NCBI RefSeq assembly: GCF_910592395.1
Contig: NC_088313.1
Span: forward strand, 7,688,501 to 7,752,500
Direction: 5' to 3'
Length of the DNA: 64,000 bases
Source of the DNA: Lineus longissimus
Lineage: Eukaryota > Nemertea > Pilidiophora > Heteronemertea > Lineidae
The first letter of the stretch is position 1; each line of letters opens with the position of its first letter. Positions 8,153 to 59,620 of the stretch are shown here, piece after piece. A program made the translations under genes and the position numbers. Below the pieces are notes generated by a model, which made no database searches, was not told the origin of the DNA, and was given only the letters and a program-made list of their open reading frames with translations.

Positions 8153-8208
8153 AACACTTTATTACCATTCTCTAAGACATCATAGATCATCTCACTGTGC
8201 TCGGAGCT

Positions 8209-20019: not shown

Positions 20020-20197
20020 TTAAACGCCATCTTAATCTAAGCAACATACTTAAGTGAAATTCTATATGATACTTAACCTTAGTGACTTGCTCAAACATAC
20101 CCTTATATTTGAGACACCTCTGGGTCTGTCTTAACTTTAAGTTGTTTGGAGAAGTCACAAAACACAACGTTCATTTTGCGGCAAACCACCGTGAGAG

Positions 20198-24737: not shown

Positions 24738-24742
24738 TCATT

Positions 24743-27497: not shown

Positions 27498-27498
27498 T

Positions 27499-28345
27499 CA
27501 TTTCATCCTGGACTTCATCTCCCTGTCCAACAACTCTCTCTGGCCACTCTGAAGAATCCCTCTGTAAAAACTCTGGGCCGTCCCACCATAGGCTGGACTC
27601 TGCTAGGTCTTTTGCTCTTACGACTCTTGAAGGCAGGTCTGCTGGGTTTTCTTTGGTTGGCACATATCTCCACTGTTGAGGGTCTGTATGTTGCTGTATC
27701 AGGCCTACTCGGTTGGCAACGAAAGGTTTCAGTTTTCTGCTAGGTCGCTTTATCCACCAGAGAACGTTTTGACTATCACTCCAAAACACCACCTCCTTGA
27801 CATTGGTGGCCAATGCTGCTACAATGCTCAGACTGAGTTGAAGTCCTAGGACCGCCGCCATCATCTCTAGTCTCGGGATGCTCACTGAGGTTAACGGTGC
27901 AACCTTGGTCTTGGACGCTACAATCCTTGTGGCTACCATTCCACTGGCATAGGTGCTTCTTGCATACACCACAGTCCCATATGCATCTTTTGAGGCATCA
28001 CCAAAGGTGTGAAGTTGGAAACTTGTCATCTCCTCAGCAAGTTGTAGGCATCTAGGGATCCTGGCTTGGGCCAACCCTGTGATTTCAACTATCCAATCCC
28101 AAGCTTTCTTTTCAATCTCCTCTGGCAATTCTTCATCCCATTCCACGCCACACATCCATACATCCTGCATGATGATTTTTCCTTGTATAACATATGGCGA
28201 CATCAACCCAAGGGGATCAAAAATGGTTGCTATTCTTCGCAGTAGGCTCCTCTTCGTAAGCTTGAGATCAGCAGCAGGGGGTGTCAGCCGATAACAGAAC
28301 GCGTCTTCTTCCGCCTTCCACATCACTCCAAGGGCCTTTACTGAT
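27499..28345 (-). pseudogene. BEL reverse transcriptase connection and RNase H
   Basis: This continues in the same frame as the gag-RT segment after one TAG stop (28345-28347). It contains TIFDPLGLMSPYVIQGK (the BEL/Pao A17-type connection), then RNase H acidic positions HTFGDASKDAYG, IPRLEMMAAV, FWSDSQNVLWW and ENPADLPSR. It is truncated by the R2 insertion at 27497; the last residues before the stop (KRPKGLALS) belong to the R2 end. Confidence 0.9.
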
Positions 28346-28347
28346 GG

Positions 28348-31300: not shown

Positions 31301-31653
31301 AAGGATGTATCCCTATCGGTGTCTAGGCCTTACTCTTCCAACACATCGTCCAGCAACGACGCCAGTTTTCTTCTTGTCTTTGTAAAACCTGCTTTATCTA
31401 CAGCTTTCTGTGCTTTCCATTCTCTCACCTCTTTCTCAGAACATTTCTCACGCTCATCATCATCATCAGCATGCAATCCATTGAGGTTATACTCATCCTG
31501 TTCACCGTTTTCTGTATGCGTGCCTTCGCTACGTACATCGTGTACATCGCCACGTGCATCGTGTACATCAACACGTGCAACTTGCATGTCTTGTTCTGAT
31601 GGCGCGTCCTGCGAGCGGCCAGGGCGCGGGAGGTCGGCTCGATCTTTACTCAT
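28348..31653 (-). pseudogene. BEL gag-protease-reverse transcriptase
   Basis: The frame opens at ATG 31653, 51 bp inside the primer-binding site. A 107-codon acidic start is followed by an in-frame TAA (about 31330-31332); the same frame then runs 984 codons. Gag shows a coiled N-terminus, a Ser/Thr linker and cysteine knuckles (CNVCGSEHGAWEC, CYRCLSGNGHRAEKC) at ~30200-30050. The protease is LLDDASTSTYI (~29800). The RT includes PVAIVCDIAEMYLQI and YMDDTLDS (~28535). It ends at TAG 28345-28347. Two stop codons in an otherwise clean frame make a working polyprotein unlikely. Confidence 0.93.
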
Positions 31654-34243: not shown

Positions 34244-35654
34244 TCACACACAAACACAGAGATGCCGCTTAAATGAATGACGATGTGAAAATGATTTTTT
34301 TTTCAAATTCGCTGAGAACAAGCTGTCATAAACTTCATCATGAGGGGGGCTGAACTGTGCAAATAAGCCATTTTGGTCCCTAGCCAGGAGAGATGTTGAA
34401 TCGTTTTCCCACTGCTTGAATTTTGAAAGCATCTCTTGCACATACAGATATTGGTCAACATATTCAACATCTCCCTGAAGCATGAGCCAAAATGGTCCAG
34501 TAACCTTTTAGTACAATATACCAAGGGCCCTTGCAAGAGCCAAAATCTCCTCAGATTCACAATCAAGTTGCACACTCTCAAGTTTCATGTTCGATGTTTC
34601 AAACCATTGGAGAAAATCTAATAAATCAGTCGAATGGTGCACAAGGGTTGCAGCCCTAAGAAAAAAGTTGTTAAAACGATTCATTCGGAAACTGGTGACC
34701 TTGGACTTCTTGCCAAGACTCTCTTCCAGAAATGACAACCATTTCATTCTGCAGCCATTTATTTCATCCCCTCTTGGTCCAAGCACATCACAACCAAGTC
34801 TGACAAATCGACATGAGGCTGAACCGGATGCATTCTTAAAACTTCGGAATTTAGGAAATGCATCACGGCCCAAGGCATGGCCCAGTTCACCAGCCAAATC
34901 TTTTTCTATGACTTTAAGCTTGGCTTCAACAGCTGCGCTCAGACCAAGAAGTAAGTGGGCATTGCAGAAAAGGAAATGAGTGTCCATTTCTGTCCCAAAA
35001 TAATTGGATTTGTACTCAGCCAATTGGCGATTGAATGCTTTATTCACGCTACAGCGATCACTCATGACACTGACAGCAAAAATTTTTTCAAGAAGGCTGT
35101 GGAATACTGAGTCTTTTTCTTTCCCTTCACAATCTGAATATAAGTCACTCAGTTCATCAATCATGTCAATGACATTGTCTAGAAGGCTGGAACTGTCCTC
35201 CACAGCCACTTGCTAGAAACCAACTGATATGGTCTTGCCACTGTCCAGTGTCATTTGTTTCCCAATAACCTTGCGATGGTCCCTTGATGTCCCATCACTA
35301 TGTAAATCCCAAGACTGGCTTTCAGAAGCCTCCTCAGCAACTTGACATTTTGCCAAGACATGTGCTCGATCCACAAAATTGCAAACACTAGAGGCAGAAG
35401 GGAGTGCACTGTCCTTTAAGTTTTTATGATGCAGCCACTTACCATCGCACTGTATAACTTTCTTAACGGACTTAGATGAAACTTCACATTCACCAATGAG
35501 CTCCATTGCGCACATTTCGACTTCATCAGTAAATCTGTTACCATCCCGTGTCTGAAAAGAATCAACATCCCGTAAATGTAGCTACTCCGACTGCAGGACA
35601 ACAATCTCACCCTTCATCGCCCTAATTTCACTGAAACGTTCCTTAGCCTTTAAT

Positions 35655-36747
35655 GAGGTGAGCTTATCCCATACCGTGGCGTCCGTCGTCCGTCGTCGTC
35701 GTCGTCGTCGTCCGTCGTCCGTTAGCAGGGCACGTTTCGTAACTGTTAGAGCTATTGAGTTGAAACTTGGTACACATGTACCCTTATGTAATGACACCTT
35801 GGAGACCAAGTTTCGGTCCGATTCGTTTCATGGTTTGGCCACCAGGGGGCCAAACGTTAAAAGTGAAAATATGCAATATCTCCCTTAATAGTAGTCGGGA
35901 AATTTTGAAAAAAATATGGTAGGTACTTCTAGCAAAGGTGCATCATATATCCTCCGGGTTTTTGATTTGACCTCCTTTTCAAGGTCACAGAGGTCAAATG
36001 GTGTAAATTGGCCGTTAGGATGTAACGATGGCACGTTTCTAAACTGCAATGACTATTGATACCAAATTTGGTACACATTTACCCCTTAGTCAGGTGATCT
36101 CAGGGACCGAAGTTTGGTCCAATATGATTCACCACTTGACCACCAGGGGGCAAAATCCAAAAACCTTAAAAATGTGATTATTCCTTAACTTCTTACCCGA
36201 TTGCCACCAATTTGATATCATGGGTACATCTAACCACCATACAGTATATGTCACACAGGTTTTTAATTTGACCTTCTTGTCAAGGTCACAGAGGTCAAAT
36301 GGCGTAAATTCGCCGTCAGGCCGTAACTATGGCACGTTTCTTAACTGCAATGACTATTGATCACAAATTAAGTACACATGTACCCCTTGGTCAGGTGATC
36401 TCAGGTACCGAAGTTTGGTGCAATCTGATTTGCCGTTTGGCCTCCAGGGAGGGGGCCAAATCCTAAATTCTTCAAAATGCCATTATTCCTAGTAATGACT
36501 TGTCCGATTGGCACCAATTTTATATCATAGGTACATCTAATTCTAACAACCGTTCAATGTGTCACCCGGGTCTTCTTTGATTTGACCTACTTTTCAAGGT
36601 CACAGAGGTCGAATGTACTGTAAATTGGCCATTTTGGGGAAATTGTAATTGCTTGGACCTACATCAAACCTAACACTACATGACACAATACCATGCTCTT
36701 TATCCATCTTTCCTCCACATGAGGTGAGCACAATGGCCCTGGCCATT
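35655..36747 (+). repeat. R1 repeat in gene A
   Basis: Left end GAGGTGAGCTTATCCCATACC (it lacks the first half of the terminal hairpin), then a short (CGT)n tract and three tandem ~305 bp units, ending ATGGCCCTGGCCATT. Units 1 and 2 carry CCACCAGGGGGC at 35839-35850 and 36140-36151. AGGTCACAGAGGTCA occurs at 35982-35996 and ~36282. It is nearly identical to the copy in gene B. No matching target duplication was found, in keeping with a deleted left end. Confidence 0.85.
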
Positions 36748-37107
36748 TCATTCCCGCTCCTCAAGTTCACACAGTTTTCGAAGAGTTCTCTGGTAGGCTC
36801 CACTTGACTTTAACTCATGAACTTGGTCAAAGGAATCTCTGATGTCCCTTTCTTTTTGAATCAATTTAGAGTTCAGTTCTGCACATTTGGCTTCTAGATT
36901 TTTTACATTGTTCTTTTCAGCAAGGCTGGTCATTGTTTTTTTTAATTCATTGTTCTTATCAGTCGTCAGTTCTTTAAGGGCTGATATCTGCACTTTGAAA
37001 AGATCGACATCACTGTACTTCTTTTTTGCAGATGATTGGGGAGTTACTTGTTTCCAGGCTTTTGGTGTAACAGGTGGAGTTCTTGGCACGGGCTGTTCCT
37101 TTCTCAC

Positions 37108-37915
37108 GGTTACAGGAAAATTCGTCCCTGGATAATTCGTCCGCGGAAAATTCGTCCCCGGATAATTCGTCCCCAAGGAAAATTCGTCCCCGGAAAATTC
37201 GTCCCCGAGGATAATTCGTCCCCGAGGATAGTTCGTCCCCAGAAAATTTTACAAAGTTGAAAGTTTCTGACTTTACTTTCCAAGACTCTTAAGTCTTGTC
37301 GAATGGACTGTAGTAATAACTACTACTTTCGATTTTTCTCATTCAGTGTAACATCTCTCTTTACTACCCTACTAGCTAGTTACCTACCCCACTATTTTCT
37401 TAGGTAGAGGTAGGCAGGCAAAATATTTTATTGAAGAATTTAGTTTTTCTTTCATTCTGACCAGTAAAAATACTTATTTGTAGAAAAATTAATTATTTCG
37501 CCTGCCTACCTCTACCTACTATGAAAAGAGTGGAGTAGGTAACTAGCTAGTAGGGTAGTAACTAGAGATATAACACTGAATGTGAAAAGTCGAAAGTAGT
37601 ATAGTAGTTACTACTAGAAAGTAATGTCAGAAACTTTCAACTTTTGTTTAATTTTCCGGGTACGAATTATCCTCGGGCACGAATTTCCCTGGGACGAATT
37701 ATCTTATGGGACATATTTTCCGGGGACAAATATTCTGGGGACGAAATTTTCCTCAGGGACGAATTTTCCAGGGACGAATTATCCGGGGACGAATTTTCCT
37801 CGGGGACAAATTTTCCAGGGACGAATTATCCTCAGGGACGAATTTATGGGGATGAATTTTCCTAGGGGACGAATTTTCCGGGGACGAGTTTTCCGGGGAC
37901 GAATTTTCCCAGAGC
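37108..37915. mobile_element. Foldback element in gene A
   Basis: Inverted arms consist of repeated ~18 bp units (GGGGACGAATTTTCC and GGGGACGAATTATCC). Inner arms (GTAGGTAACTAGCTAGTAGG and its complement, ~37365-37390 and ~37532-37557) are also inverted. A 10 bp direct duplication CCTTTCTCAC flanks it (37098-37107, 37916-37925). Taking out the element and one duplication copy restores the gene A frame (SVVRK then EQPVPRTPP). It is non-coding. Confidence 0.85.
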
Positions 37916-38776
37916 CCTTTCTCACAACACTGAATATCTCCAATTTAAATTGATCTCCAGCATTGTCATTCCGTGACTTACTCAGATTCAGAGTCATGAA
38001 ACGGTTTTTGACTCTGTTCTTTTGATCTCTCAAGCATTTTGTGTCTGACCCCTTTATATCAGAGTCCACATCAAGAGCTTGCAGGAGATGCAACAGATGT
38101 GAAATGGAGAGTTTTTCCACTTCACAAAACCGAGCAAATTCCAGAAGAAGTCCATTTGTTATTCGACACTTAACAGAAAGTTCTGAGAAGTCCAGCACCT
38201 GCTTCCTACCAAGACCAATCTGAGCTGAAAACTCCCCAATGTAATTGAGATGGCAATGGAGTCAAAGAAATCGGTCCTCGATCCTTCTGGTAGTGATAGT
38301 GCCTTGACAACTGCCTCCTTGACATGTTTCGAAAACCTGTGCTTTGGATAGGAAGGACAGATTTTCGAAAGCCAGCCGTTGGCCTTCTCCCAGGATGCAC
38401 CGGTCTCTTTCACAATGTAATTGACTTGAATCAGCAATCGATTTGACAACGGGTGAGGTCAAGTCTCGAGTAAAGTAAAGGTATCCCTGAGATTTTTACC
38501 CTAGGGTAAAGATAACCCCCAGTATACCCGATATTTGACTTCTCAACCGGGCTAAAGTTTACTTCAGGTTTACCTAGAGTAAACTCTGGATTTGTGCAAA
38601 GTTTTACTCAAATTATACCCCAGGGTTTACTCAACATAAGCAGAGCCGCCATCATGGATAAAACTGAATTGAATAATGCATTAGGGTAAACTTAAACTCC
38701 TAGGAGTTAACTCTGAGTTTACTTGGGAAGAAGTCAAGTCTTGAGTAAAGTTCTGTAGGGTGAAAAGTTGTCAGCC

Positions 38777-39173
38777 ATGTTTTTTATGCCTGTCCTAGTA
38801 GCTCTTGCCGACCAAGAAAGACGAGAAAACTTCACCAGGAGGCCGGCTTTTAGCGAAGAGCCTGTACACCGTCACTTGCGACTGACAGATGAACAGTTTG
38901 ATGGCATTTCCCAGGAGTACCATGACTGGAGGATCGAGCGAGCACAGGGAAACAGGAGGTTTGTTTCGACTGCTGAGAAGAGAATGCAGACATTTTTGTT
39001 GTACTTGGCCTCAGGTGGCTACCACCGACAAATAGGATATACCCAGGGCATTGCAAAATCAACAGCCATACTACACAGTAAGGAAGTGTCGGACTTCTTC
39101 ATGGACATATCTGGTGAACACATATCTTTTCCACGGGAGGATCACCTCAATCACTTAAAGGCCATATATCAAG
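38777..39173 (+). CDS. Harbinger transposase, N-terminal part
   Basis: ATG 38777 opens MFFMPVLVALADQERR. The N-terminal helix-turn-helix region follows (TAEKRMQTFLLYLASGGYHR, IGYTQGIAKSTA) and then ISGEHISFPREDHLNHL. After AIYQ a donor-like AAG|GTTTGA stands at 39173/39174. The catalytic half lies 2.3 kb downstream at 41445. The split is either a large intron or the result of insertions (an R1 copy and two ORFs lie between). The simplest donor/acceptor pair does not give the right phase, so splicing is unproven. Confidence 0.75.
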
Positions 39174-39393
39174 GTTTGAAAACATGCTTGATACTCATGA
39201 AATATGTTGAGGGTTAAAAAAACAAGATCCCAGACATTAAAAAAATTCTAATAATAAAGTCATTATTTAGTTATTTCAATTTTCAATTTTAAACTATTTG
39301 AATTTCCCACCACACACAACTTTAGATTAGTTCCACATGTGGCCGCTAGGGATTTTTTGATGACGTAGATCAGGTCAGTCATAACAAAGCAAG

Positions 39394-41188: not shown

Positions 41189-41444
41189 TCATATGATTGC
41201 ATGACATGTACAGATGACCTGATCTACATCAGAACTTTTGCTGAACCCGCCGCCTGGCTCTAACAAGCCAGTTGCTAGCCTGATCAGGTAATCAAGTTGT
41301 CAAACACATAATTGGCTATATCTTCAAAATGGATGGAGCTAATTGCATTTGGTTTTCTGTATTGTATAAAGTGTTAGGTACACTTTTGAAATCGTCTTAC
41401 AGCAGAAAATGGCAAAAAACCTTGATATATGACCTTTAAGTACT

Positions 41445-41993
41445 GTTCTTGTTGATGTGAATGGTGTTGAAAAACATGTTGTCATGTACTTGGACGGTGT
41501 CATCATAAAAATTCAGCGGCCGGACCACGTGGGTGATGCCTATTACTGTGGCAGACCTGGCAAATGTTGCGACTCTATCAACGCCCAGTATGTTGTGGAC
41601 AAGTTCGGCCGAGTACGTCATCTCATCACTGGTCTTCCTGGCTCTACCCATGACAAGACAGCTGCTGAATGGGGTGAAGACTTCATGAGATATTTGGATC
41701 AGCTGCCGGATAATCATGTTGTCCTTGGTGATGCTGCGTACAGGAATTTGCATCCTGCTGTTTTGGTCCCGTTTATAGGACGCAACCTTCAACCAGACCA
41801 GAATACTTTCAACAATCGCTGTACCAGAATACGTCAAATCGTTGAAGGCTCTATTGGAGCCACAGAGCTGAAATGGCGCATGAACCAGATGAAGGAGAAT
41901 CGGTACCCTGCAAAGTATGGCCCTCTCTTTGCTTCCCAATGCACTATTGCAACATGTGTGTTGCACAACAGATTCACCAATTTTTTGGACTAA
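41445..41993 (+). CDS. Harbinger transposase, catalytic part
   Basis: The open frame carries all catalytic positions of PIF/Harbinger DDE transposases: VVMYLDGVIIKI (first Asp), GLPGSTHDKT, VVLGDAAYRN (second Asp) and IVEGSIGATELKWR (Glu), ending CVLHNRFTNFLD. It is undamaged. With the N-terminal part at 38777 it would form the transposase of the 38451-54236 element. It may use an acceptor upstream of 41445; the exact exon start is not resolved. Confidence 0.85.
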   Translation, partial: VLVDVNGVEKHVVMYLDGVIIKIQRPDHVGDAYYCGRPGKCCDSINAQYVVDKFGRVRHLITGLPGSTHDKTAAEWGEDFMRYLDQLPDNHVVLGDAAYRNLHPAVLVPFIGRNLQPDQNTFNNRCTRIRQIVEGSIGATELKWRMNQMKENRYPAKYGPLFASQCTIATCVLHNRFTNFLD

Positions 41994-42599
41994 AACCCTC
42001 AAAACTAGAGTTGCCCTGTACTAGGAAACTTGAGAAGGAAAATAAAAGCACAGCTTGTATTAAACTCTGAACTTTGTTTAACAAAAATGTAAAAAAATCT
42101 TAATACAAAATAATCATGTCATGTATATACTAAATTTGACCTGGTTACTCGAGGCTGATCAAGTCCAATTACCCTGAAAATAACTATGAGCAGAGGTGGC
42201 TAATACTTTTAGCAGTTGCAAGAATAACATGAGACTAAGAATGAACAAGTGCAACAATAATTAGTATTCTCTAGGTGCAAAACCTGTCTAAAGCCACCTT
42301 AGATAGGCAGTAAAAGGAACTAGATGTCCAACCTTTCGATCTAGCGCTTGTTACATATTCTTAGTCTCATGTTATTCTTGCTTTTACCAGAGTCTTTCTA
42401 TACAAGGGTCTGGTCACTGGTTTCAACATCAAAGACACCGCCCGTCTCGAACGACGTGTGGTGGGACAGCGCTCTCTCGGATCACATGGTACACCCAAGC
42501 CAACTTTTTACGCCATTCCGCCATTTTGGTTCACTCGGAAAGTCATCGTCTCAATCTCTCTCACAAAAACATGTTTTTACTGCCTGAAGGATATCAAGA

Positions 42600-44362
42600 A
42601 TCGCTTTGAGTTGCTAAAATCAAGATAGACTTTTATCTCACGGACAGTTAGGTATGTTTCAATTTGCGATATATGTTATTAGTTTTGCCCAATTGGTCAT
42701 CTTTGTAGACTGTAGTTTTGACGGCGATTCGAAAAATGTCCAAATAGTTTTTTTTCTTCTCGCAGTTTTCCACATTTTTGTTGTTAGGCGTTCAGTATGA
42801 TGTCGTTGTTGATTTGACTTTTTAAAAGATTCACATTGTTCTTTATGGTTTGATCTAACTTAATAATCGCGTGTGGTTAAAATTGAACCGAACAAACTGA
42901 CGTTAGAGCGGGTTTTATTCGAGTCTCTGAAAAAAAACCTAAAAAACGCCTGAAGAAAACGAAAAATTCTCGGATAGACGAAAAGTTGTTGTTAGCAGTA
43001 GGTACCGGCATCCAATTTTTTTTTTGGGCAGTAGAAGTGGTTTAATAGGCTCAATCAATTCACTTGTGCATCAAATAGAAGCACCAAAAATTTCGGTTGA
43101 TTATCTCCAACGGTTTTCGAGATATGGGGGTCGGGGTACCCCCTTCAGCCCGCCTTCCTTGTAAACAACCAAATAAGTGGTTTTTGAAGAAGAATAACTC
43201 AAGATTTATATCAATTCACATGTGTTTGGTGTTATTACCTCATCAGTTCTACACCATAGTATGCAGAAATGCACACTTGGACATCTCAGTGAAGTACTTT
43301 TCATGAAAGAGGCATTTCAAAATGCTATTTTTGGCAGTGTCACAGGGGGTCAATTGGCCAACGGAGCAATTTTGGAGCCTCATATTTCTGGATTTAGACC
43401 TCTAACCACCCTAAAGCAGCATTTTTACTGTTGACCAGGGTAGGGTTAATCACCCTATTTTTTTGCAGAGTTGTGGAGGACTTGAAAAAAAAAAATAAGG
43501 CTCCAAAAATGCTCGAAATCAATATTTTGACGACGGAAAAAAAATTTCAGAAAAAGGGGAAAATACCCAAAGTTGCATGGTTTTGGAACTGTAATAAATC
43601 GCTCAGTTTCCATCACAATTGAATGAAAATTAGCTATCTAAGAGAGTTTTTCGTACTGAATCCAATAAAACTGTCCTTTTGACATTATCTCAAATGGTTT
43701 TTGAACAACATTGAGATTAAAATATCGAAAAAATGCAAATATCGAAATTCCGATAATTTTCAATTTTTTTCAAAATTCCATAAAAAGTTCAATTTTCATG
43801 GCAGCTGGATCATAATTAGAGATCTAAGGTATGTTTTACTCCTAAATCCAGTAGTACTGTCCTTTTGATGATATATATGGTCATCTTTTGACCATAGCCA
43901 ATTTAAAAACTACCGATTTTTTTAAATTGACAAATTTCCCGAATTTCAAACTGAACTGCAATGACTGCTATTTCATGAAAAATCAACCACAATGTAAGAC
44001 TCTTGGGGTACAAAAGCTTCATAAATTCATTGGAAATGCCATATTTGTGTTATATTTAAGTTTTGATAGTACAGTGGTCACTTGAAATATCTTTTTTAAA
44101 TTTAAATTTTAAAAAAAATTTGCAAGATAAAAATTATTCAAATCCAAAAAACTTGTCACACTCACAGTCACACAGAAGTTAATTTTTCATGGATATAGCT
44201 TGACATACATATAGTACAGTCATGTTCCTGACCTGTACAACTAACAGTTCATCATTCATGTGGTACTTTGTATTACGGATCCTTTCAAAAGCAGTTCACT
44301 GGATATTTGCACAACGTTCGACACTAACAATATTTCACAAATCAATCACACACAATGTTGTT
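42600..44362. other. Non-coding interior of the 10.5 kb element
   Basis: AT-rich with many short A and T runs. Repeated phrases such as CTGTCCTTTTGA(C/T) with ATCATAATTAGA-type context recur near 43672 and 43858. No ORF of quality. It would contain the 3' untranslated region of gene B. Confidence 0.4.
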
Positions 44363-46340
44363 TCAGCAGAACTCCCTCGTGTAGCTCTTGAACCTCTTTT
44401 TAATGTCTTTAATGTCATTGTCAGCAATGTTCCAGGTTCTGCCATTTGCTGTCGTAACAGTAAAGTCAGAGGAAAACACAAATTTAGACTCGACCCAGTC
44501 ATTGTCTTCTGCAGGTGGAAATTTGAAGACAGTCTCTTTCAATCCGCATTGTTGCATGAATTTGACTTTAGCAACACTGTCACTGCGAACGTCTGTCACC
44601 TGACCAATGTAGAATTCCGGCTCCTTGTTTGGGCAGTAGTAAACAGCAACCCACGTTCCTTGTTGAGAGAACTTGAAGCTGAAGGACTGTTTCGGTGTTT
44701 TTGTTGGCATTTCATTTTCAGATTCTGAAATGATAAACAGTCAGATGTTATTAAGTTATTCTCTATGCATACCTGTAGGCTTAACCATCTGGAAATGATA
44801 CAATGTACGTTTCAATTCAATGTCTTCTTTTCTTCTTTCAGGGGATGTTCCTGAAGCAAGGATGAGGGATTTGCGCAATGGAGGAGAACAGCGAGAAGAG
44901 CCACAACATCATGGCAGGATTTTTAATGTTACTCTTTACGTCTTCGTCTTACAATACATGTACATTGTCCTACTCATAGTCATAGTCTAATTATGGTTTC
45001 CATTTTGAATTAAACTGTAAGATAAAAGAACTAATTAAGTTAAAAAATTCAAATCAAGTACGATACCTGAATCGCTTTCCTCATCCTCGGTGTCGTCCTC
45101 CGTGTTGAAGTTATCACTTTCACTACCCGTGTCGTCGTAGTCGTCTCCCTGATCATCGGATGATTCAGCGGTGGTTACAGCATGTACTGGCAGAACATTT
45201 TCGGCTTCATCAGCTTCTGCTGTGGAGTCTTCACCGTCTGACGTTGCTTCTGAAATTATACCATGGGGAAAATTATAAGTTTTTATCTTGTTAAAATCAA
45301 AGAATCACACTAATGTAGCTACATTGTAGCTATTATTTATTCAATTTTCAATTTCAATTTTTATTTTTATTGAATCATTATATGAAAAAAATGAGTGATT
45401 GTTGTGTTCTGATCCATGAACTAAATTTTAAGTAAGAATATATAATCATGATGTGTATGTATTGTAATACTAAGTATCTTGTGGTGAGAAAGTGACAATA
45501 TTGTACATGTACATGTACATCGATCTTTCAAAATAACTCACCTGGGTCATCTTTTTTCCGGAAGAATGTTTTCATGTTCTTGGAAACCGTTTTGAAGCTC
45601 CCAGTCACTTTCAGATGCTTGCTTTTGTGGCCCAAGACAATCTTCTGGTACCGGATCTCAGCTTGGATGGCTTTCGTCTTTGATCCCTTCGACAGATCGT
45701 TCCTCCTCAACAGAGCCTTCAAGTCCTCTGAAGACAGACAAGGGCCACCATGATCCCGTACACTCATCGTCAGTTCCTCCTTTCTTTTTTGAAGGTCTAG
45801 CACTTTCTGATGTGCCTTCCGCTTGTTCTCCCTCAGAGCATTTTGAACTTCCTGCTGAACCTGCTTCGTAGCCGATTTGTGCTTGTCTCTGAGAGAGGGC
45901 CCCAAGGTTACACTTTGCTTAAGTAATCGTTCCTGTGTCTCTGCAGGCTGGTGAGCAAACCATTTGCTCATGGTGTGGTTGCGCTTCATCATATTCACCG
46001 TTGAGTGATGGTGGAGTGAGGCGTTGCGTCTTTTAAAAAGACTAAAGTCTAAGTCCCCAAAACAGGCTTCACCCAGTAAATTGGTGAGTTGGCAGTGGTT
46101 CATCCTCTTCCGAATCTGTTCATCTTCTACATCATGGTATCTACCTCCTGGTAGAAAGTCGGGTAACTGGCGCTTAGTGACGGTGAGGAACCCAGCAGCT
46201 AGAGCCTCGAGGACAAGTTTCACACTTCGCGTGTCGTTGGATGGAGTAGGTAGTTGATCGTACAGGGCTTGCATCACCTCGTCATTTTTAGCTCACCTCT
46301 TAGCAGAGGTGAGCTTATCCCATACCGTGGCGTCCGTCGT

Positions 46341-46432
<92 letters not shown>

Positions 46433-49400
46433 CGTCGTCCGTTAGCAGGGCACGTTTCGTAACTGTTAGAGCTATTGAGTTGAAACTTGGTACACATGTA
46501 CCCTTATGTAATGACACTTGGGAGACCAAGTTTCGGTCCGATTCGTTTCATGGTTTGGCCACCAGGGGGCCAAACGTTAAAAGTGAAAATATGCAATATC
46601 TCCCTTAATAGTAGTCGGGAAATTTTGAAAAAAATATGGTAGGTACTTCTAGCAAAGGTGCATCATATATCCTCCAGGTTTTTGATTTGACCTCCTTTTC
46701 AAGGTCACAGAGGTCAAATGGTGTAAATTAGCCGTTAGGATGTAACGATGGCACGTTTCTAAACTGCAATGACTATTGATACCAAATTTGGTACACATTT
46801 ACCCCTTAGTCAGGTGATCTCAAGGACCAAAGTTTGGTCCAATATGATTCACCACTTGACCACCAGGGGGCAAAATCCAAAAACCTTAAAAATGTGATTA
46901 TTCCTTAACTTCTTGCCCGATTGCCACCAATTTGATATCATGGGTACATCTAACCACCATACAGTATATGTCACACAGATTTTTAATTTGACCTTCTTGT
47001 CAAGGTCACAGAGGTCAAATGGCGTAAATTCGCCGTCAGGCCGTAACTATGGCATGTTTCTTAACTGCATCACAAATTAAGTACACATGTACCCCTTGGT
47101 CAGGTGATCTCAGGTACCGAAGTTTGGTGCGATCTGATTTGCCGTTTGGCCTCCAGGGAGGGGGCCAAATCCTAAATTCTTCAAAATGCCATTATTCCTA
47201 GTAATGACTTGCCCGATTGGCACCAATTTTATATCATAGGTTCATCTAATTCTAACAACCATTCAATGTGTCACCCGGGTCTTCTTTGATTTGACCTACT
47301 TTTCAAGGTCACAGAGGTCGAATGTACTGTAAATTGGCCATTTTGGGGAAATTGTAATTGCTTGGACCTACATCAAACCTAACACTTCATGACACAAGAC
47401 CATGCTCTTTATCCATCTTTCCTCCACATGAGGTGAGCACAATGGCCCTGGCCATTTCATTAACTTTGAAATCATCGAAGAGTACTGTATCAGGCTGAAG
47501 GAGGGTTGTAGCATCCTTTGACCAGGTCTCCAAGGCAGTGTCAAGCTTCACAATGTATTTGAAGAAATCAAGGTATAACACCTTGCTGCGAACAAGTAAC
47601 CAGTATGGGCCAGTGACTTTGTGATACATGATGCCAAGGGCAGTTATGAACACATCAATGTCATCATCTTCAGCATCTAGCAGCACACTCCGAAGTTTCT
47701 GGTTGTTGTTTGTGTGGTACACCGTGAAGTACTGAATGATTGCTGTCCGATGGTAGTGTAAAGCAGTAGCAGCTTGGAAATAGTTGTTGAACCTATTTGA
47801 CTTGAAACTAGTGATCTGATTTGGTTTTGTTATAATGTCACAATAGGCGTACCACGCATCACGACATCCACTCTTCTCGTCACCTCTGGGGCCAAGCGAG
47901 TCACAAGCCAGACGGACATACCTGGCAGCACAATTCTCTGCGGAACTACTGAAGTGACCAAACGATGGATTTTTATCTCTGCCAAATTTTTCACCTTTCG
48001 TAATTTCCTTTAGGACTTTTTCAGTCTCACTACTTAAACCTAGCAAGAAGTGAGCATTGCAGTGTATGAACTCCAATGTTTCTTCTGTTTGAAGCAGGTC
48101 TTTCCTGTGTTGGTCAAACTTTTTATTGAATGACTTCATGACACTAGCGCGGTCACTCATCAGTCCCACCATTTTGCTAAGTGTAGTCCTGTAATGCTGA
48201 TCTGCATCCTCTGCATAGACGTCGGCTATTTCCTGAAACACACCCATTGTCACTTCAACAATTGTGTCTGCGTCCTCCTTTGCAACCGTGCAAAATCCTG
48301 TTGTTAGAGTCTCGCCCGAGTCTAAAGTCAGCTGCTGCCCCATGTAGTGATTGTGGTCCTTGGATGTCCCGTCACTATGAACATCTAAATACTCGCACTC
48401 TTCGATTGCTGACCCAATGTGCATTTTTGCCAACACATGTCCACGATCAGCAAAACGAAGTGAAGTCCTTTCTGATGGCAAGTCCTCCAATGTGGCATTA
48501 AACATATTTCTGGCAACTATGCGAATTATGTCCGAACACCTGCCAGCAGCCACCTCAGCTTCACCTATGAGTTCAATCACAGTCTTTATGACGTCACCAG
48601 TATATGCACTTCCTTGCTTCGTTTGCACTGCAGTAGGCCTATCCAATGTTGTCCCCTCTTCAGCTATGACCTGACTGAAATCCATTTCCATGGCTTGCAT
48701 TTTTTCAAACAACTTCTCCTTTTCTTTCTTACACTTTTCCTTTGCGCATTTTTCATTGGCAACCAGAGTCTGTAGATTTTTCACTTTTTTCTTAAGTTCA
48801 TCAATGATTTCATCACAACCATTCGCCACATGCTGCTCAACTATCTTTCTCTTTTCATTTAAGTCGACCTCCTTTCTTTGTAATCGTTTATAGTACGCAC
48901 TTTGTTCTTTTGAACTGAGTTCCGCCTTCAGATCTGCAATCACTGATTTACAGTCCCGATTCAGTGAAGCCAGCTCAACAACTTCAATCTTTGTCTCTGC
49001 CAAGTCTTGCTTTACATCTGCCAAGTCTTGCTTCAGAACTTTGCACTTACGTCCTTCTTCTTTAAGACTAAAGTTTGATGAGCAATTTGCCTCCTTTATA
49101 GCATCAAGTTGAAGTTTCAAAGTTTCATTCACTGATGAAACTTCAGATATTTTCGCCTCAAGGCCACGTACTTTGCATCCGAGTTGAATGTTGGCAACAT
49201 TTGGGGAGCTGAAGTTGACTGGTGTTGGAGCGACACCAATTTCTGAATCAGATATCTCATCGTCCGGTAGGGGTACCAAAGATACATCATCACCACTCTC
49301 AATAGTCACACTGACACTGAGCGTCTGACATGCATGCGCAACATCCTGAATTTCGAACTTTAAGTTTTTATTTACTGTCTGGACAACAAACAAGTCTGCA

Positions 49401-50775
49401 AGGCCTTTACCATCACTGTTCTTTCGGTAATTGCTCCTGCCTAGCGCCCGATACTTTTTCACAATTGACGCAATTCTTTGCTTTAGCAAATTGTCCGAAA
49501 AATCAAATGCATATCCGAAAGTTTCTAAGATAAGTCGCTTCTTTTTAATGTTTATCCCACGCTTTTTGCATAATTTCTCAATGTCAACAATAATTCCATG
49601 TGTCAAAGGAATCTCTCTCGCAACAACAGATAAATCCTCTATCGGTCCACATAACAACTCCTCTGTCAGTTGACAGGAATGTTCGACAGTAAGGGAAAAT
49701 TCAACATGTTCCTCCAAGAAGGTGAGAAGGTCCGCATCTGTTTTAATCCCTTTTGCACGTTTAACTGTTTGTTCAATCTTCGGACGAACTCTATTCCTTG
49801 TCACAGAGAATAATCTAAGAAACAAGTCAATGATCGTATCCCAATTTTTAGCACATTCGTTAGGGGAGTGTAGCACATGCAGCTGTAGCAAAAGACGATT
49901 ATTGCACCTAAGATCCACCGGTAACGGTCTTCTTCCACGCCCAGATGCCTTTAGATTCTTCTCCAAGACGCTGTAATTCTCATCCCCTGAAAAAAGAAAG
50001 GGAAATATTTGAGATAAAGAATAATAATGATGCATAATGTAATTAATGTGGAGAAGAAAAAAATTGTGATGCAAAGTCTTTATTTTCAGCAATTTTTGTC
50101 AATAAAAGTCACTTATATACCGTCAAAAGATGATATTGTTGTCTAATGATGACAATTCATCTTTGTAGTTTGTTATCATTTCAAAAAACCTTCATAGAAC
50201 TGATAAAACATTTGGAAAAATAAACAGCAGTCATCATCATTGGGACATCCTGTATACTGCCCACGTGGATTTGTTTACCAACACATCGACGAGAACCAAT
50301 CAGAGCTTTGGAATTAGTCACGTGACCAAACAACCTACGTCACAGGATCGTTGACCTGAACAGCTGATTCAAATCCTCAATCAGAGGTCATTTTCAACTC
50401 CCAAACTATGCCAAACCGCAGATAGCAGAACATAAATACCGATATTATCATGATCATGGGGCCTTATACTACCAATATAAACCACGATTGGAGCTGAATT
50501 CATTGAAAACAAAATTAAATCGCCGACTGAGCGCGATACATTTTCTTCCAATATTCTGTTCACTCGCCCTCCATTGATTTCGGAGCGTCGCCTAAAGTCT
50601 CGAATTTAGGTGGTTTCCGTCACTTCAAAATACAAATCATCAACATCTACATCTAAGTTGACATTATATTTCCAAAATATATATGATTGTATGAAGCCTA
50701 CTTACGCAGAATCGGTATAAATTTGGCTAAAAAATCTGAATCGTCGTCAGCTAAATCGGCTATGGGCGCAGCCAT
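44363..50775 (-). CDS. Gene B: large transposase-like protein, four exons
   Basis: Exons: 50706-50775 (begins MAAPIADLADDDSDF, donor GTAAGT), 45542-49986 (acceptor TTTTTTCAG, donor GTGAGT), 45067-45249 and 44363-44724; all phases agree. Exon 2 is interrupted by an R1 copy (46287-47456). Without it and one target duplication the frame is 1,294 codons with no other stop. Domains: an N-terminal helical part; a long coiled coil (~residues 310-480); VHSDGTSKDHNHY (~48380), LMSDRASVMKSFN (~48150), HCNAHFLLGL (~48055), CDSLGPRGDEKSGC, FKSNRFNNYF; then GFLTVTKRQLPDFLPGG; an acidic exon; and an SH3/Tudor-like end (GTWVAVYY, YIGQV, FMQQCG). D...D...CxxH recalls hAT transposases. It is the only evident candidate to move the 42388-52927 element. 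Confidence 0.8.
46287..47456 (+). repeat. R1 repeat in gene B
   Basis: 1,170 bp, flanked by TCATT on both sides (46282-46286, 47457-47461). Left hairpin TTTAGCTCACCTCTTAGCAG; right palindrome ATGGCCCTGGCCATT. Three tandem ~300 bp units have CCACCAGGGGGC at 46559-46570 and 46860-46871 and AGGTCACAGAGGTCA near 46704 and 47007. Its left part carries an expanded (CGT)n tract. Confidence 0.92.
46342..46432. repeat. (CGT)n microsatellite, ~30 units
   Basis: 91 bp of uninterrupted CGT inside R1. The equivalent site in the R1 at 35655 has about 8 units and in the R1 at 40303 none. Poly-Arg, poly-Ser and poly-Thr frames here are artefacts. Confidence 0.97.
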
Positions 50776-52600
50776 TTTGTCTCTAAATCTAGGTCAGAAA
50801 TCGGCGCTACGGGGGTCACTTTTCTTTTGCGCGGCGGACGAACGCCGTTGATTGCGGCAGATAGATAAGTATCTGATTAAAAAGTTTGTTTTTCAAGCTT
50901 TATTTTGGTACCTAGTTTAGTATACTTTTAATTTTGGCTTCATGGAGAAATTTAGCGCTGAAAATGACATTTTACTTCAACTGAGATTCTATAAATATAA
51001 TTTTAAAATTTTGTTTACAAATTTTATACGAATGGAAAGCTTGTGGAATGGGCTAGCTTCTGAAACTATTTTTAGATCGAATGACATCACGGCGTAATTC
51101 CGCAAGGAGTTTTCCCAAACGGGTTCACATGTACTTTCCCAGATCAGCTGATTGAAGGGGATTATAATTGGCTAATTAGGGAAAAAGTGAGGGTGTTTGA
51201 ATGGATTATTTCACTGTGGGTTTAAAAAGGAATCAACACAAGACTTATATGAATGAAAAGAAGAAGGATTAAACTTTATTTCTGTGAAAAAAGTAAGTGA
51301 TTATGATTTACAGATTTAGAGAACAAGCAAGTTGAACATAAGACATTTTGAGCACATTCTCACACTTTCCTATAGGTTTGCCTAGTGGATGCCGGTACCT
51401 ATTAGCAGTTAGCATGTTTATCGTGCAAATTTCATTATCATAGTACATTTGCTAATTAGATATAACTGTCTTCTTACTAAATAATCAACTCTTGTACCTT
51501 TTTAAGTTTTTAATTTTGAGTTATTATTATTACAAATTGGTCCCGTTTTCCTCAAATTGGTTCTGTCATTCAGCGGTTCAGTGTGTAGAGTACCCGGATG
51601 TATATGGCTTCATGCACAGGTCATGACAGATACTAGAAAAGGTTCGATGACAGGTTGAAATAAAATGTCATGCAAAGCATTATACTCAAAAGTACTCAAA
51701 TCCACTGTTGTGTTATGTGTGTGGTTTACATTACCTGCATTACTCATTATTTCTCGGCTCCCTGCAATGTATGTCATGTGTTGATAACTTTTGTAAACAA
51801 TAACACAACAGCTTGTGTTGTATTTGTATTTGTTAATTTGTTTTTTAACCTAACTTAAGTAGGCCTGGGCCTTATAATTGTAATTCCTGATTTGAGTCAC
51901 CTGATGAAATGAACTTATTCACTCTGTTGTTTTATTTACCAGTTGTAATTTTTGTTGTTTTATTTACCAGTTATAAATTATGCTGTTTCACTTCTTCACT
52001 TTAGGTCTGGTTCCATCATGCCGAATAAGAAAAAGGGTTCAAGGTCCAGGTTTACACGTCCCAAGAGCAAGAAAGATGATAGGTTACCGAAGGCGTCAGT
52101 GTTTTTACTTCACTTTATGTTTCTGGTATTACCTGGTAATAAAATGTTTTTATGTAAATCAAATTGTATTGATTTTTTTACTGGTTCTGGTAATGGTACA
52201 CCCGTATTGCTTTTGGATGGCAGATGAACTCGGCAACAAACAGGACGACAACTTTAGTACTCCCTACCAGAAGATGTAAATTCTGTATGACCGGTTGTTG
52301 CTGAGGAGACGGTCACAACCGTGATACTTAGTATTCTGTTGCCTATGATCCCTCCCAGATATACCTGAAGGTTGTTCAATGACCTCGGGAGACAAAGACC
52401 AGTATCATGGTATGTTTGTGTAGAAAGACATTGCCAAAACGGACCTGAGCACAACTCGATTTAGCCAGCTGCTTGGCCTCCCAACAACTGCAAGACTGTA
52501 TACTATGGCACAGCATGTGTTGTCCCATGTTTATCCTGTCCCTCCAATGGAATTAAGAACCACTTGCTATGGGGACAGTCACAACCACGTCTCATTACTT
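50776..52600. other. Upstream region of gene B
   Basis: AT-rich, presumably containing the gene B promoter and 5' sequence. A possible short plus-strand two-exon ORF is listed separately. No other feature is supported. Confidence 0.35.
52018..52278 (+). CDS. Possible small basic two-exon ORF
   Basis: After an acceptor-like TCTTCACTTTAG, ATG 52018 opens MPNKKKGSRSRFTRPKSKKD, a strongly basic peptide reaching a possible donor after PKA (~52098). A second stretch after GGATGGCAG (~52221) reads DELGNKQDDNFSTPYQKM and stops. Together ~44 residues. Basic peptide and splice signals are suggestive only. If real it would be a second gene of the 10.5 kb element. Confidence 0.2.
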
Positions 52601-52631
52601 CAGAAAATATGCCCTTGTCTTCACTAGACAT

Positions 52632-52703
52632 CTAAGGACATCCAATCAGAAGACAGGAACAATTAACCGGAAAATCTTGAAAGACAACTCCCTCGTCCGC
52701 CAT
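52632..52703 (-). CDS. Short ATGGCGG-type first-exon candidate
   Basis: ATG 52703 in the context AAAAATGGCGGACGAGG opens MADEGVVFQDFP, followed by a GTTAAT that could be a donor; otherwise it stops after 23 codons. It lies just inside the right inverted repeat, in the same direction as gene B, so it could be an upstream exon. Confidence 0.2.
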   Translation of the reverse strand: MADEGVVFQDFPVNCSCLLIGCP

Positions 52704-53224
52704 TTTTGTTGTTAGTGTCTTCCTCATTCGGAACGGTTCGGAGAAACTCGGTGAGCTTCGGCGAAAAAGCGCGCCACCATCGGAAGTTGATAGAACTGAC
52801 TTACGACGTTTGCGCAAAATTTAAGAAAAAATTAAAGGGCTTCATCTGGCTCCAGTTAATTGCCCGAGAGAGCCGTGTGATCAAAGGAAAGTTGCCGGTG
52901 ACCAGACCCTTGTATAGAAAGACTCTGCTTTTACTCATCACAAAATGCAAAAATTACTGTTAGGCTAAAAATCAAATTGTCTTAAACCTCACGGTTACAA
53001 CTGCAATACAAGTGCCCTACTACTGGCAACATCAGGACTAGACTTGTCCTTTATGAGAAGTCCCTTCACCATGACTGTATCGAAGCCTAAGTTTTCATGA
53101 CTAATGTTCTGTTGTTTGGTCCCTGAATTTAAAAATTATGATAGTCTATGCTATAAAAGTCTTTCTTCTGATTCACTCTGTTTTAGTCTCTGAATGATTT
53201 CACACTAAATTATGATCATCATCG

Positions 53225-54561: not shown

Positions 54562-55257
54562 TTATTGTGGTATAAGTTGTATTGCTGATAAACAAATAAA
54601 ACTTTGAATTTCGTGGAGTGGAAAACTACTTTCAGGGTATTCATCAATGCACTTTCCACTAAAACAATAGGTGAACTTGGGGTCGCATTTTTTCCCTGAA
54701 ATCTGGGTCTGACTCTTTTCCAAACTTTCCACCTGGGAGAAAATCAGATAGCTGTCGTTCAGTAACCTCAATGAACCCAATCATCAATCTCTCCAATGTT
54801 GATTTGGTTCTGGCATCCGAGCTTTCAGTTTCTGAGAATAATACATCAAAAATTTCATCTTTCTTGGGAGGGAAATCAGTAAAAATGCCATCACCATCTT
54901 TTGCCATCAACGATTCAGAATCTTCAGCCCACTGTCGAAATTTGGTCAGCATCTGCTGTACATACAGATATTGGTCCACATACTGGACCCCACCCTGCAG
55001 CATTTCCCAGAAAGGTGCAGTAACTTTGTAGTATATAATACCAAGTGCTCTGATAAGACCTTTCAATTCTGAGTATCTACAATCTGCTAGAACACTTTCC
55101 AATTTCTTATTCAAATCATCTCTGTAGTCACTCAGGAACTGCTCTATTTCTTCAGCATGATACAGTAAGGTTGCAGCACCAAGATAAAAGTTATTGAATC
55201 TGTTCATGTGGAAACTAGTAGCAACCACAGGGCAAAATTTTGCCTTTATAATTCATT
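54562..55257 (-). pseudogene. Gene C: paralogue, C-terminal part
   Basis: Aligns with gene B after the CxxH region: ATSFHMNRFNNFYLGAATLL (~55215), IRALGIIYYKVTAPFWEM, VQYVDQYLYVQQML, KKDEIFDVLF, then FIEVTERQLSDFLPGGKF (~54750). A frameshift near 54690 leads to an alternate ending (YCFSGKCIDEYPESS). The preceding exon sequence is separated by ~3 kb of R2- and R1-type repeats. Confidence 0.8.
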
Positions 55258-55306
55258 CATTATTGGAATTTTTCTAAAAAGAGTAAATTGACAGAATTCT
55301 TCTCTT

Positions 55307-56151
55307 TTTTAGCTGAGCTGAAAAAGTCAGCGGAGCTAGTCAAATAGCTATTCGATTGGTGTCCGTCCTTCCACCCACCCTGCCATCCTTCCATCTAGCC
55401 ATCTGTAGACAAAGTTGGGCATTTTGTAATCATACAACCGAGGCACTTCAAATCTAGTCTTGCTTATAAACACCGCAGAAAATGTTGCTTACGGAAAAAA
55501 ATTTGGGCGATTCGACTCAAATTCAGCTCCCCAGGGGGCAAAATGTGTAAATGAAAAAAACAATTTTTTGACGCTCTATTCCAGCAGATAAAAGCTTGAA
55601 ATAAAGTTGAAAAGGTCTTCATGATACAGAAGTTTTGATATAAAATAGATTAGTGTCGATTTATATCACCAGTTGGCGGTAGTGAGCAAAACTGTTGTTT
55701 GACCCCGGATGACCCCGCTTTAAATTTTCCGCCGGTTACCTGGAGTACTATCATCAAGAAAATGGCGGTAACCTTTTTATTTCTACCGGAGCGATGATTT
55801 TGTAAGTGAAAAATTTTCTTTTTAAGCCTTTACGGAAACGTATTTTGGTACGAAACTTTAAACGTTTATAGAAAAGATCAACGAGAATGTGTTCAAATGC
55901 CCTCACAACGATGAGTTCAACAGAATTTGGTCAAAACAACCTTCGAATGGAGTCAACTTTCTTTGCAAAATTGAAGCGACGACCTCATTATTTATCGTTA
56001 TTTATGCAGATCTGAGTCCAGCTGATAGGCGATGTTTTGATTTGTGTTCAAACTATTGGAAACTTCGGAAATTAATTCTATTAGTTCTACTATTCTGTAG
56101 GAGTATATTATAGCCATTGATGTTGACAGCTAAAAGCACGAAAACTTTGTT
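55307..56151 (+). repeat. R2 repeat, short copy in gene C
   Basis: Nearly identical to 13847-14680 from TTTAGCTGAGCTGAAAAAG through the ATGGCGG/donor segment (55759, GATTTTGTAAGTG) to AGCACGAAAACTTTGTT. The R2 right end is not found; similarity stops at 56151. A shared ORF (FKCPHNDEFN...IWSKQPSNGV) is present in both copies but has no supporting evidence as a gene. Confidence 0.8.
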
Positions 56152-56741
56152 CAGGTTTGTTGTCCAATCACGTGACCTCTCCAACACTCGATAATGCACT
56201 CTTTTCGTCCAAGTTTTAGGCCAATCTTCGGCCTGAACATGAAATCTAATAAGCGCAGTACTTAAATCAGATGTTTCTCTCGCCTTGAAAACATTCCTGG
56301 GTAAAATCCATTGAGATTAGCCGAGTTAATCCATTTTTTCCGTGCCTAAAATCTCTGCTGCTGAATTCTATAAATAGAAACTATTAAGATCGCGGCAGTG
56401 TGGTTCCCATTGTGCGCCCTCCCACTTCACACCATGTCAGGAACTTTTACGGAGAGAGAGGGCGTGCGGTAAGAAGAATGGCCAAAATGACGTCACGTTT
56501 TCCTGGCAATGTCTCTTGCCAGACCAGTCAAGCATTGGGAAAGCATCTTTCATTCAGACAACGTTAGAACTAGAAAAACGAATATGTTAATTTGCAAAAT
56601 TAAAAGCAGATTTCACCACTAACCAGCCAAATCGGAATACAACGGCGCAAAATGTTCTCGCTTTCCTCCTGCTAAAAAACCTTGTTCCCGCACTCCTATT
56701 TTAATTTATCCCAAGGAATATGATATGATCTGTTTTCACTT

Positions 56742-58262
56742 TTTGGCTCACCGTAGGGGAGTCTATGCAATACTGCAGTGTCAGTCGTCCGTCGTCGTTG
56801 TTCGTCGTATCCTAGTTCAAAAACAGTGGCACGTTTTTTAACCGCTAGGCCTATGAACTTAAAACTTTGTACACATGACTCCCTAGGTCAGATGACCCGT
56901 GACACTAAATTTCTGTCCGATCTGATTCTCTACTTGGCCACCAGGGGGCCAAATGTGGATATCTAAAAAGTGTGATATCTCGCTTATTAGTGACTTGTTT
57001 TCGATAAAACTTTTGTGGTAGGTACTCGTAGCAAGGATACATCATATATCTTACGGGTTTTTAATTTGATCTACTTTTCAAGGTCGCAGAGGTCAAATGG
57101 CGTGAATTGGCCGTTTGAGTGTAACTATGGCACGTTTCTCAACCACCAAAGCTATGAGCTTGAAACTTGGTACATATAACCCCCTATATCAGATAACCTC
57201 TGGTGCTGAATTTCAGCCTGATCTGATTCTTGACTTTGCCACCAGGGGGCCAAAACAGAAAAAGTAAGAAGTGCAATAGCCTGCTTATTAGCAAATTGTT
57301 TTTGATGAAATTTTTATGGCAGGGACCCCTAGCAAGGTTACCTCAGATGTTGCACGATTTTTCGGATTTGACCTACTTTTTAAGGTCGCAGAGGTCAAAT
57401 GGCGTAAATTTGCCGTTTGAGTGTAACTATGGCACATTTCTCAACCGCAACAGTTATGAACTTGAAACTTTGAACAAATGACCCCCTAGGTCAGTTGACC
57501 TTTTACACTGAATTTTGGTTCGGTCTGATTATTGACTTGGCCACCAGGGGCCCAAACTCAAAACTCAAAAAGTGTGATTTCTCGCTTATTACTGATTTGT
57601 TTTTGATAAAAGTTTCATGGTAGGTACTCCTAGCAAGGATACATCACATATCTTACGGGTTTTTGATTTTACCCACCTTTCAAGTTCACAGAGGTCAAAG
57701 TTGAAAACTTTACCGTTCTTGGTACGTTTTGTCGGTGTTCAATGTAAAGAGTTTTAATTTTGTGTAATGATGCATCTAAGAAGCCACTATTTGTATGCCA
57801 AGTTTCAGCCAGATCGGAATTCAAATATGGCCGAAATTGCATGTTTTGTGGGTTTTTCCTCGTATTGTGGCAATCCAAAGGTCGTGAGTTCAAACCCCGG
57901 TCAAGGACAGCCAAAAATATTTTTATTTTTCATCTTTTCCTTTTTTCTTTTCTGAGTTAAATCTTACATTTTCTTCATTTTTTTATTTATTTGGTGCCAT
58001 AGATTTAATTAGGCGGCCATCTTGGAAATCGTTTTTTGCCGATTGCTGTAGTGTAACAGTGATGAAATTGTTATGGTCGGGTGGATGTGTCTACATCACA
58101 TATCACCCTGGTTTGTTATTTGACCTACCTGTCAGGGTCACTGAGGTCAAAGTTAAAAATATATTCACCATTGTCATGGAGTGGCACGTTTCTTCACTAT
58201 CATTTTCACCTAGACTCTACAAGCTTGGAACCACAAGTCTCGGATTCACCACTTGGCCAGGG
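56742..58262 (+). repeat. R1-family repeat in gene C
   Basis: Starts GGCTCACCGTAGGGGAG and has three clear ~300 bp units plus a diverged tail. Perfect CCACCAGGGGGC occurs at 56938-56949 and 57239-57250, and a one-mismatch version at ~57540. Nuclear-receptor-like sites (AGGTCGCAGAGGTCA) occur near 57080 and 57385. A tRNA-like B box (GAGTTCAAACCCCGG) near 57886 may be a small inserted SINE piece. Confidence 0.75.
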
Positions 58263-59620
58263 ATTTTATATTCTCATGTTGACAGTGTGCCTCCCATTTG
58301 TCACGCAACCTAAGGTAGTCCCCCTCTGGCCCAAATATTTGGGATGCTGACAGTGCTATCCGCTCAACCGCAGGTTTGGATTTCCAGTCTTTGAACATGT
58401 CCTTTCCTTTCATTCCAAGGCCATGACCAAGTTCTTCTGAAATTTCAGCTTCAAGAGGCTTCAGTGCTGCAACTGTATTGGAATGAAACCCCAAGAGCAC
58501 ATGCACACTGCAGTGAAAACTGTGGACAGTCTGCTGGTCCTCCTCCGTTTGTAATGTCTCCTGCTTCCATTCATTAAGAAGTCTATTGCTCTTTTTCTCA
58601 TTAGCGGCTCTGTCACTCATGAAATAGCTAAGTTTGTTTAGTCCATGCTCCTCAATAAAGGATTCTGATGTCAGACCAGTGTCATCATGTGCCTGCATTT
58701 CAGCTATTTCCGTTAAAGCGTCCTTTGAGGTACCAGCAATAGCCTCGCCTGTCTCGTGGGCCACTCTGGTAAAACCAAGGCTAATGATATCTCCGGAACT
58801 CAGAGTGATGGAAGTGTCCAAAATTTTCCTTTTTTTACGAGTCGTTCCATCTTTGCACAAACCCCAATTCGTACTCTCCTTGAGCTGCTCCGCAATAAAG
58901 CGTTTGGCTACATATTGACCTATGGCTCGTACAGTAGTAGGATTTTGGACATCAGCTTTTTGAAGGTGTCGACCTGCAATGTATTGGCTCACACAGATGA
59001 TAACCTGTGGTACTTTGTCATTTGCCACCTCTAAGCCAGTCAACTCCATTACACACATTCGAACATTTTCACTGTAACAACCAGACTTATCCTTCAAGTC
59101 AGGAAATGTCTCGTGCTCAGGATCGTGGACTGATTCAAGGTACATTATCTGATCATCTTTTTCCTTCAATTTTTTTTTCAGTTGTGTGTTAGTTTCTGTG
59201 CTGTGTAGGCCCAATGTTCTGTTTGATTTCAATATCGCTACCTTCCGTTTGAAATGGTTTCTGGATTTACGTGCTTTGATTAGTTTGTTTTTCAACTGTC
59301 CTACAGCATTTATTTGGTCATTTAAAAACTGCTGATGAGCAAGGGCCCCGTCTTCTGTCAGTTGCTCTAACTTTACAGTGAGTCCTGCAATTTCATCATC
59401 TTTTTCACGAAGTTCTTTAGAGGTTATCTTAAACTGTTCAGCCCTAGTTTTCGCTAACTTGTCTCTTTTTCTTACATTCCGAGGATTGAAGTGACCCACT
59501 CTTTTCTTTATTTTGTTGTAGTCCTCCTTTAGTGTTGATATTTTTGTTTCTAGTGTACGAATTCTGCGTTGCTTTTGAATTATTTCAAAGGTCAGTTCAT
59601 TTTTTTGCTTTTTGCTTCAA
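58263..59620 (-). pseudogene. Gene C: paralogue, N-terminal and central part
   Basis: Coiled-coil start (IRTLETKISTLKEDYNKI, then TSKELREKDDEIAGLT) followed by the family core: LCKDGTTRKKRK (~58850), YFMSDRAANEKKSN (~58615), HCSVHVLLGF (~58520), ELGHGLGMKGKD and FGPEGDYLRLRDKW (~58310). All three signature positions are kept. The frame then runs into the R1 insertion. The true start is not found; an ORF at 59597-59821 in another frame (PPGLSFFDFTGEASVLP) could be an upstream exon. Confidence 0.8.

Follow-up and report, generated by a model that had tools for sequence, protein, structure and literature searches.

A hAT-like DNA transposon nested within a P-superfamily element in the genome of Lineus longissimus

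Nested organization of the unit

The stretch analysed here, referred to as the window, comprises 64,000 nucleotides of the Lineus longissimus genome (C6:7688501-7752500, contig NC_088313.1), and positions below are those of the window. At 42388-52927 it contains a 10.5-kb unit that we interpret, with a probability of about 90%, as two nested cut-and-paste DNA transposons, an inner hAT-like element lying inside an outer element of the P superfamily. An earlier note on this DNA had described the unit as one transposon carrying its own transposase gene; its assignment to DNA transposons is supported, but the ends are those of one element and the gene is that of another.

The outer element spans 42388-52927 and has 33-bp terminal inverted repeats (TIRs) at 42388-42420 (plus strand) and 52895-52927 (minus strand), which are 97% complementary. 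The 7-bp target site duplication CTTTTAC lies on both sides (42381-42387 and 52928-52934). Inverted ends of about this length and the CTTTTAC flanks had both been reported previously, and both are confirmed. Only about 2.1 kb of the interval is the outer element's own DNA, and the rest is an interruption, the inner element, of 8,403 bp (42999-51401), with a hAT-like transposase gene on the minus strand.

The inner element has its own TIRs, TAGGTACCGGCATCCA at 42999-43014 (plus strand) and its inverted counterpart at 51386-51401 (minus strand), ends that recur with one mismatch on other elements of the same family. These are bordered by a second 7-bp duplication, TTAGCAG, at 42992-42998 and 51402-51408, so that the window reads, in order, TTAGCAG, TAGGTACCGGCATCCA, the remainder of the 8,403-bp block, the inverted end, and a second TTAGCAG. 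The corresponding junction is shown for 10 of the 12 fetched outer copies longer than 2 kb, and all 10 have the uninterrupted sequence TTGTTGTTAGCAGTTAGCATG with a single TTAGCAG, that is, an empty site. Because the inner element is nested in the outer one, the outer inserted first and the inner later. Taken by itself, the window would also allow an inner duplication of 8 bp (TTAGCAGT), but this was rejected because it does not suit the other seven family elements whose two ends are known.

The outer element

A 20-bp outer end, allowing up to 3 mismatches, is confined in the window to the two outer TIRs (mean by chance 0.01) and occurs at 259 places in the 391-Mb genome, compared with 49 for a reversed control; viral_contigs contains no exact match. 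Twenty end pairs, picked by eye among the first matches listed for having two opposed ends close together, were fetched together with 6 further tiny copies. The ends thus recur elsewhere in the genome, in keeping with the mobility that had been claimed for them, and the exact 7-bp duplication is present in 26 of 27 copies (the window, 19 of the 20 pairs, and all 6 tiny copies), with one mismatch in the remaining one. The duplication of one copy (L027) sits in an AT run, and its length is therefore not unique.

Seven copies of about 2.1 kb (L009-L015) are 97.6-100% identical to both outer parts over the aligned blocks and are without positions 613-9014 of the window element; several of them also differ inside the right part. 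A longer copy, L018, has 6,754 bp between the same outer ends and encodes an 828-amino acid (aa) P-type open reading frame (ORF) matching PF21787 (E-value 3.4e-25), PF21788 (4.8e-15) and PF21789 (3.5e-9), the P-type RNase H N-terminal, GTP-binding insertion and RNase H C-terminal models. The 8,542-bp copy L017 contains ORF pieces that by eye resemble those of L018, and has a short reading frame in common with the window copy. Since a same-ended copy encodes a P-type ORF and the window copy has no transposase body, the outer element is an internally deleted, non-autonomous and otherwise ordinary derivative of the P superfamily (THAP9/P element), to which the large inner gene does not belong. 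The P-type RNase H and GTP-binding insertion models of L018 constitute the likeness to this superfamily; the duplication differs, being 7 bp here and 8 bp for the Drosophila P element. The outer element would have been moved by the transposase of the longer P-type copies.

Two further observations concern these copies. L018 also contains a 365-aa open frame (988-2082, plus strand) with no Pfam match, which may be a second gene or a further nested element. Ten outer copies (L023, L025, L026, L027 and L079-L084) are only 35-56 bp long, mostly near-palindromes of both ends, with little beyond 16-20 bp per end between exact 7-bp duplications. P-type transposases make a 17-nt staggered cut; remnants of this size fit such a cut, and the tiny copies look like excision footprints.

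The inner transposase gene

A large spliced gene with consistent phases, as proposed earlier, is readable on the minus strand as a predicted four-exon gene whose splice sites were chosen by eye. Exon 1 (50706-50775), inferred from sequence, provides the start codon and a GT donor. The first part of exon 2 (47457-49986) encodes an N-terminal helical domain, a coiled coil and an RNase H core, with conserved D codons at 48371-48373 and 48152-48154 and a CxxH motif (C at 48059-48061, H at 48050-48052); the second part (45542-46286) encodes the end of the core, including a conserved E codon at 46068-46070. Exon 3 (45067-45249) encodes an acidic linker, and exon 4 (44363-44724), which matches homologues, encodes a C-terminal SH3/Tudor-like domain, a barrel in a homologue model, and the stop codon.

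The two parts of exon 2 are separated by a 1.17-kb repeat (46287-47456, borders by eye) with TCATT on both sides, also identified by eye. A related copy of this repeat at approximately 35.68-36.75 kb is 97.5% identical over the longest aligned block. Because the repeat interrupts the coding exon, the 1,294-codon length given in the earlier note skips an insertion; the gene can be read, but the window copy in its present form is not intact. A second copy of the nested repeat (L057, G000:C6:7762130-7765420; 97.8% over 1,459 bp), located roughly 10 kb beyond the end of the window, is accompanied by a bit of the transposase exon, as though the repeat had brought adjoining sequence along or a duplication had affected the region.

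The inner protein

The inner family has a predicted RNase H-like fold with a hAT-type helical insertion, whose closest fold match, by a clear margin, is Hermes; the fold comparisons cover mainly the catalytic core, and the N- and C-terminal domains barely. Conserved D, D, CxxH and E positions are present in an alignment of 66 rows (the protein P0003, 64 other homologue matches and the window piece), and D, D and CxxH recur in 15 genome copies, whose coverage does not extend to the E. By order and spacing, the D-D-E residues of the family are probably equivalent to the Hermes triad and would be catalytic. The hAT-like series of D, SDR and HCxxH pointed out previously is supported in this protein. 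The earlier note had named two refuting outcomes, the lack of any second copy with these ends and a structure lacking an RNase H-like fold, and neither was observed.

Full-looking family proteins are about 1,000-1,420 aa long, with a coiled coil and a C-terminal barrel, both of which are visible in structure models as had been proposed. The label Tudor-like for the barrel is provisional, and draws on the model barrel, the name of one source protein (P0066) and the impression of the earlier note's author. In a sister branch of the family, a Spin/Ssty accession is present in 17 of 102 matches. One sister-family relative, P0165, is filed under a bacterial metagenome-assembled genome (Sedimenticola), and is probably animal host contamination.

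Pfam was run on the window pieces and on 21 family proteins, and no transposase family was matched, which agrees with the earlier suggestion of a layout outside the described families. The Pfam, PDB and coiled-coil matches of the inner protein are generic only, and the portions of the literature available to our search contained no transposase family with this domain layout. Mollusc relatives are labelled uncharacterised or hypothetical in the search results, no transposon name occurs among the examined homologue matches of the family, and family scans of viral_contigs and genome_contigs identified no relative.

Other members of the inner family

The genome contains at least 57 places with family sequence, some being pieces of one gene; 54 of 132 candidates were scored. 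At C9, C13 and C17 lie further elements with the inner end at one mismatch, and all three have exact 7-bp duplications. The transposases of the C9 and C13 elements are 40% identical to that of the window, and the C17 element is a 4.0-kb deletion derivative with only a gene fragment.

A blind search for a duplication with inverted ends (14-bp ends, up to 2 mismatches; 1 chance match in 200 simple shuffles) identified a 5,952-bp element with ends TAGGGAGTTCAAGG around a 26% identical family copy. A second copy, 99.88% identical over its full length, occupies another site, and a third is known from its ends only. After a stretch had been added and the settings relaxed to 12-bp ends with as many as 3 mismatches, an 8,729-bp element (L072/L074) was found around a 54% identical copy, its ends having 0 mismatches compared with 3 in four other candidates. 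Exact 7-bp duplications flank all eight family elements for which both ends are known, and six of the eight duplications fit nTnnnAn. Because near-identical copies occupy different sites, we conclude that the inner family moved recently in the Lineus genome.

Two other family members lie in the window, both on the minus strand: a decayed one at 34253-38533, with three stops in the matched part (L050), and one in pieces at 54599-59607. A blind end search around the two found none. The window thus has three family members on one strand within 64 kb, with the copies at 34253-38533 and 54599-59607 both fragmented.

Other features of the window

Open frames at 20195-21261, 38759-39217 and 41433-41993 resemble by eye those of Harbinger-type transposases, and others at 23198-31329 resemble, again by eye, those of a BEL/Pao-type long terminal repeat (LTR) retrotransposon. 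A large inverted repeat at 5122-6087, with 206-nt arms that are 99% complementary, is built of 21-bp tandem units.

Discussion

We regard the inner family as a hAT-like lineage that differs in the length of its duplication and in its domain layout and is possibly a superfamily of its own. That it works like a hAT transposase is suggested because fold and motif order agree, an agreement that falls short of establishing hAT membership. The likeness to hAT, represented by Hermes, comprises an RNase H core with a helical insertion, D-D-E order, and CxxH after the second D. hAT elements have nTnnnnAn duplications and ends starting with TA; the inner ends likewise begin with TA, and T is second and A second-last in the duplication.

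Several results weigh against our interpretation. No Pfam hAT model was matched by the window pieces or the 21 members, and Hermes is absent from the profile matches against PDB. Comparison with one Lineus hAT protein gave an hhalign probability of 0.4%, with a lone local stretch pairing SDRAS with YDGAS and CNAH with CRSH at the second-D and CxxH motifs. Foldseek matches the fold to Hermes with modest TM-scores, 0.25 by query and 0.46 by target, and the product and activity of the inner transposase are predicted from sequence and models. The C-terminal Tudor-like barrel may be a chromatin reader, a putative role, and profile comparison failed to join this domain to its counterpart in the sister family (probability 3.7%). 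Of the 12 places examined for ends, 4 yielded none: the two other window members together with L040 and L041, which had been chosen for a single end motif and in which partner ends were sought.

Given somewhat better than even odds, the inner family is an ordinary divergent hAT clade whose duplications have changed in length and whose proteins carry extra domains, nested in the outer element just as described above. The clear margin by which Hermes is the best fold match and the fit of six of eight duplications to nTnnnAn favour this placement. So do published hAT groups (hAT5, hAT6 and hAT7) with 5-, 6- and 7-bp duplications, among which fungal hAT7, with 7 bp, is classed as hAT by transposase similarity, according to the available portion of PMC12730594. 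That hAT7 of rust fungi is alike in its 7-bp duplications and hAT-like character, but clusters with fungal and plant hAT, whereas the inner family matched no hAT model (PMC12730594, same portion).

Against an ordinary hAT clade stand the proteins of about 1,000-1,420 aa with their added coiled coil and barrel, the strictly 7-bp rather than the hAT-typical 8-bp duplications, and the finding of no significant sequence link. Neither Dimer_Tnp_hAT (PF05699) nor an N-terminal BED zinc finger was matched in the window pieces or the 21 members; as a positive control PF05699 was detected at 36 places in the genome, which on comparison by eye are all distinct from the 57 family places. hAT clades vary in the presence of the BED zinc finger. 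The KDZ group (Zisupton and relatives) likewise consists of DNA transposons that have TIRs, and its duplications are similar in length to those of the inner family, but no KDZ model is among the Pfam matches of the 21 members, and Zisupton duplications are 8 bp in the portion of PMC12730594 available.

More tentatively, and at well under even odds, the inner element may represent an undescribed animal cut-and-paste superfamily. Its members would combine a hAT-like catalytic core and an extended coiled coil with TAGG ends and strict 7-bp duplications. Their C-terminal modules, resembling chromatin readers, would be swappable, one branch having a Tudor-like barrel and part of the sister branch a Spin/Ssty domain, and would steer integration to marked chromatin.

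It is very improbable that the inner family consists of domesticated host genes lying by chance inside mobile DNA. The large size of the proteins, their added domains and their conserved acidic residues would suit such genes, but copies with matching ends and exact 7-bp duplications lie at different sites, are up to 99.88% identical, and in some cases contain stops. Least credible is a single autonomous 10.5-kb transposon, in which the gene would supply the transposase acting on the CAGAGTC ends and the 2.1-kb copies would derive from it by deletion: the gene does lie inside the outer ends and the short copies do have both end regions in common, but the 2.1-kb copies and the uninterrupted junction, with one TTAGCAG in all 10 copies shown and two flanking an inverted-ended block in the window, rule it out. 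In addition, elements of the hAT-like family bear ends of their own elsewhere in the genome, none of the 20 fetched outer copies, among them L017 and L018, matches the family proteins, and the L018 ORF matches P-type models.

For the nested arrangement of a hAT-like element in a P-superfamily element, our reading of the history is as follows. The inner 8.4-kb element inserted into the outer one, duplicating TTAGCAG and bringing its own hAT-like transposase gene, and the 1.17-kb repeat broke that gene in a separate event. The gene would be transcribed and spliced, and its product most likely assembles through the coiled coil and recognises the TAGG ends. Excision, and joining near nTnnnAn with a 7-bp stagger, would be the work of an RNase H centre of D-D-E type that contains a hAT-type helical insertion, and the C-terminal barrel could tether the enzyme to chromatin.

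What is new here is a hAT-like lineage with 7-bp duplications and unusual added domains, at a locus whose nesting gives the relative order of two insertions. Because the family moved recently in this worm and its mollusc relatives are labelled uncharacterised or hypothetical, the way in which genes and repeats are annotated in such genomes may be affected. The C-terminal modules, among them the Spin/Ssty domain of the sister branch, make reader-guided integration by a hAT-like enzyme directly testable.
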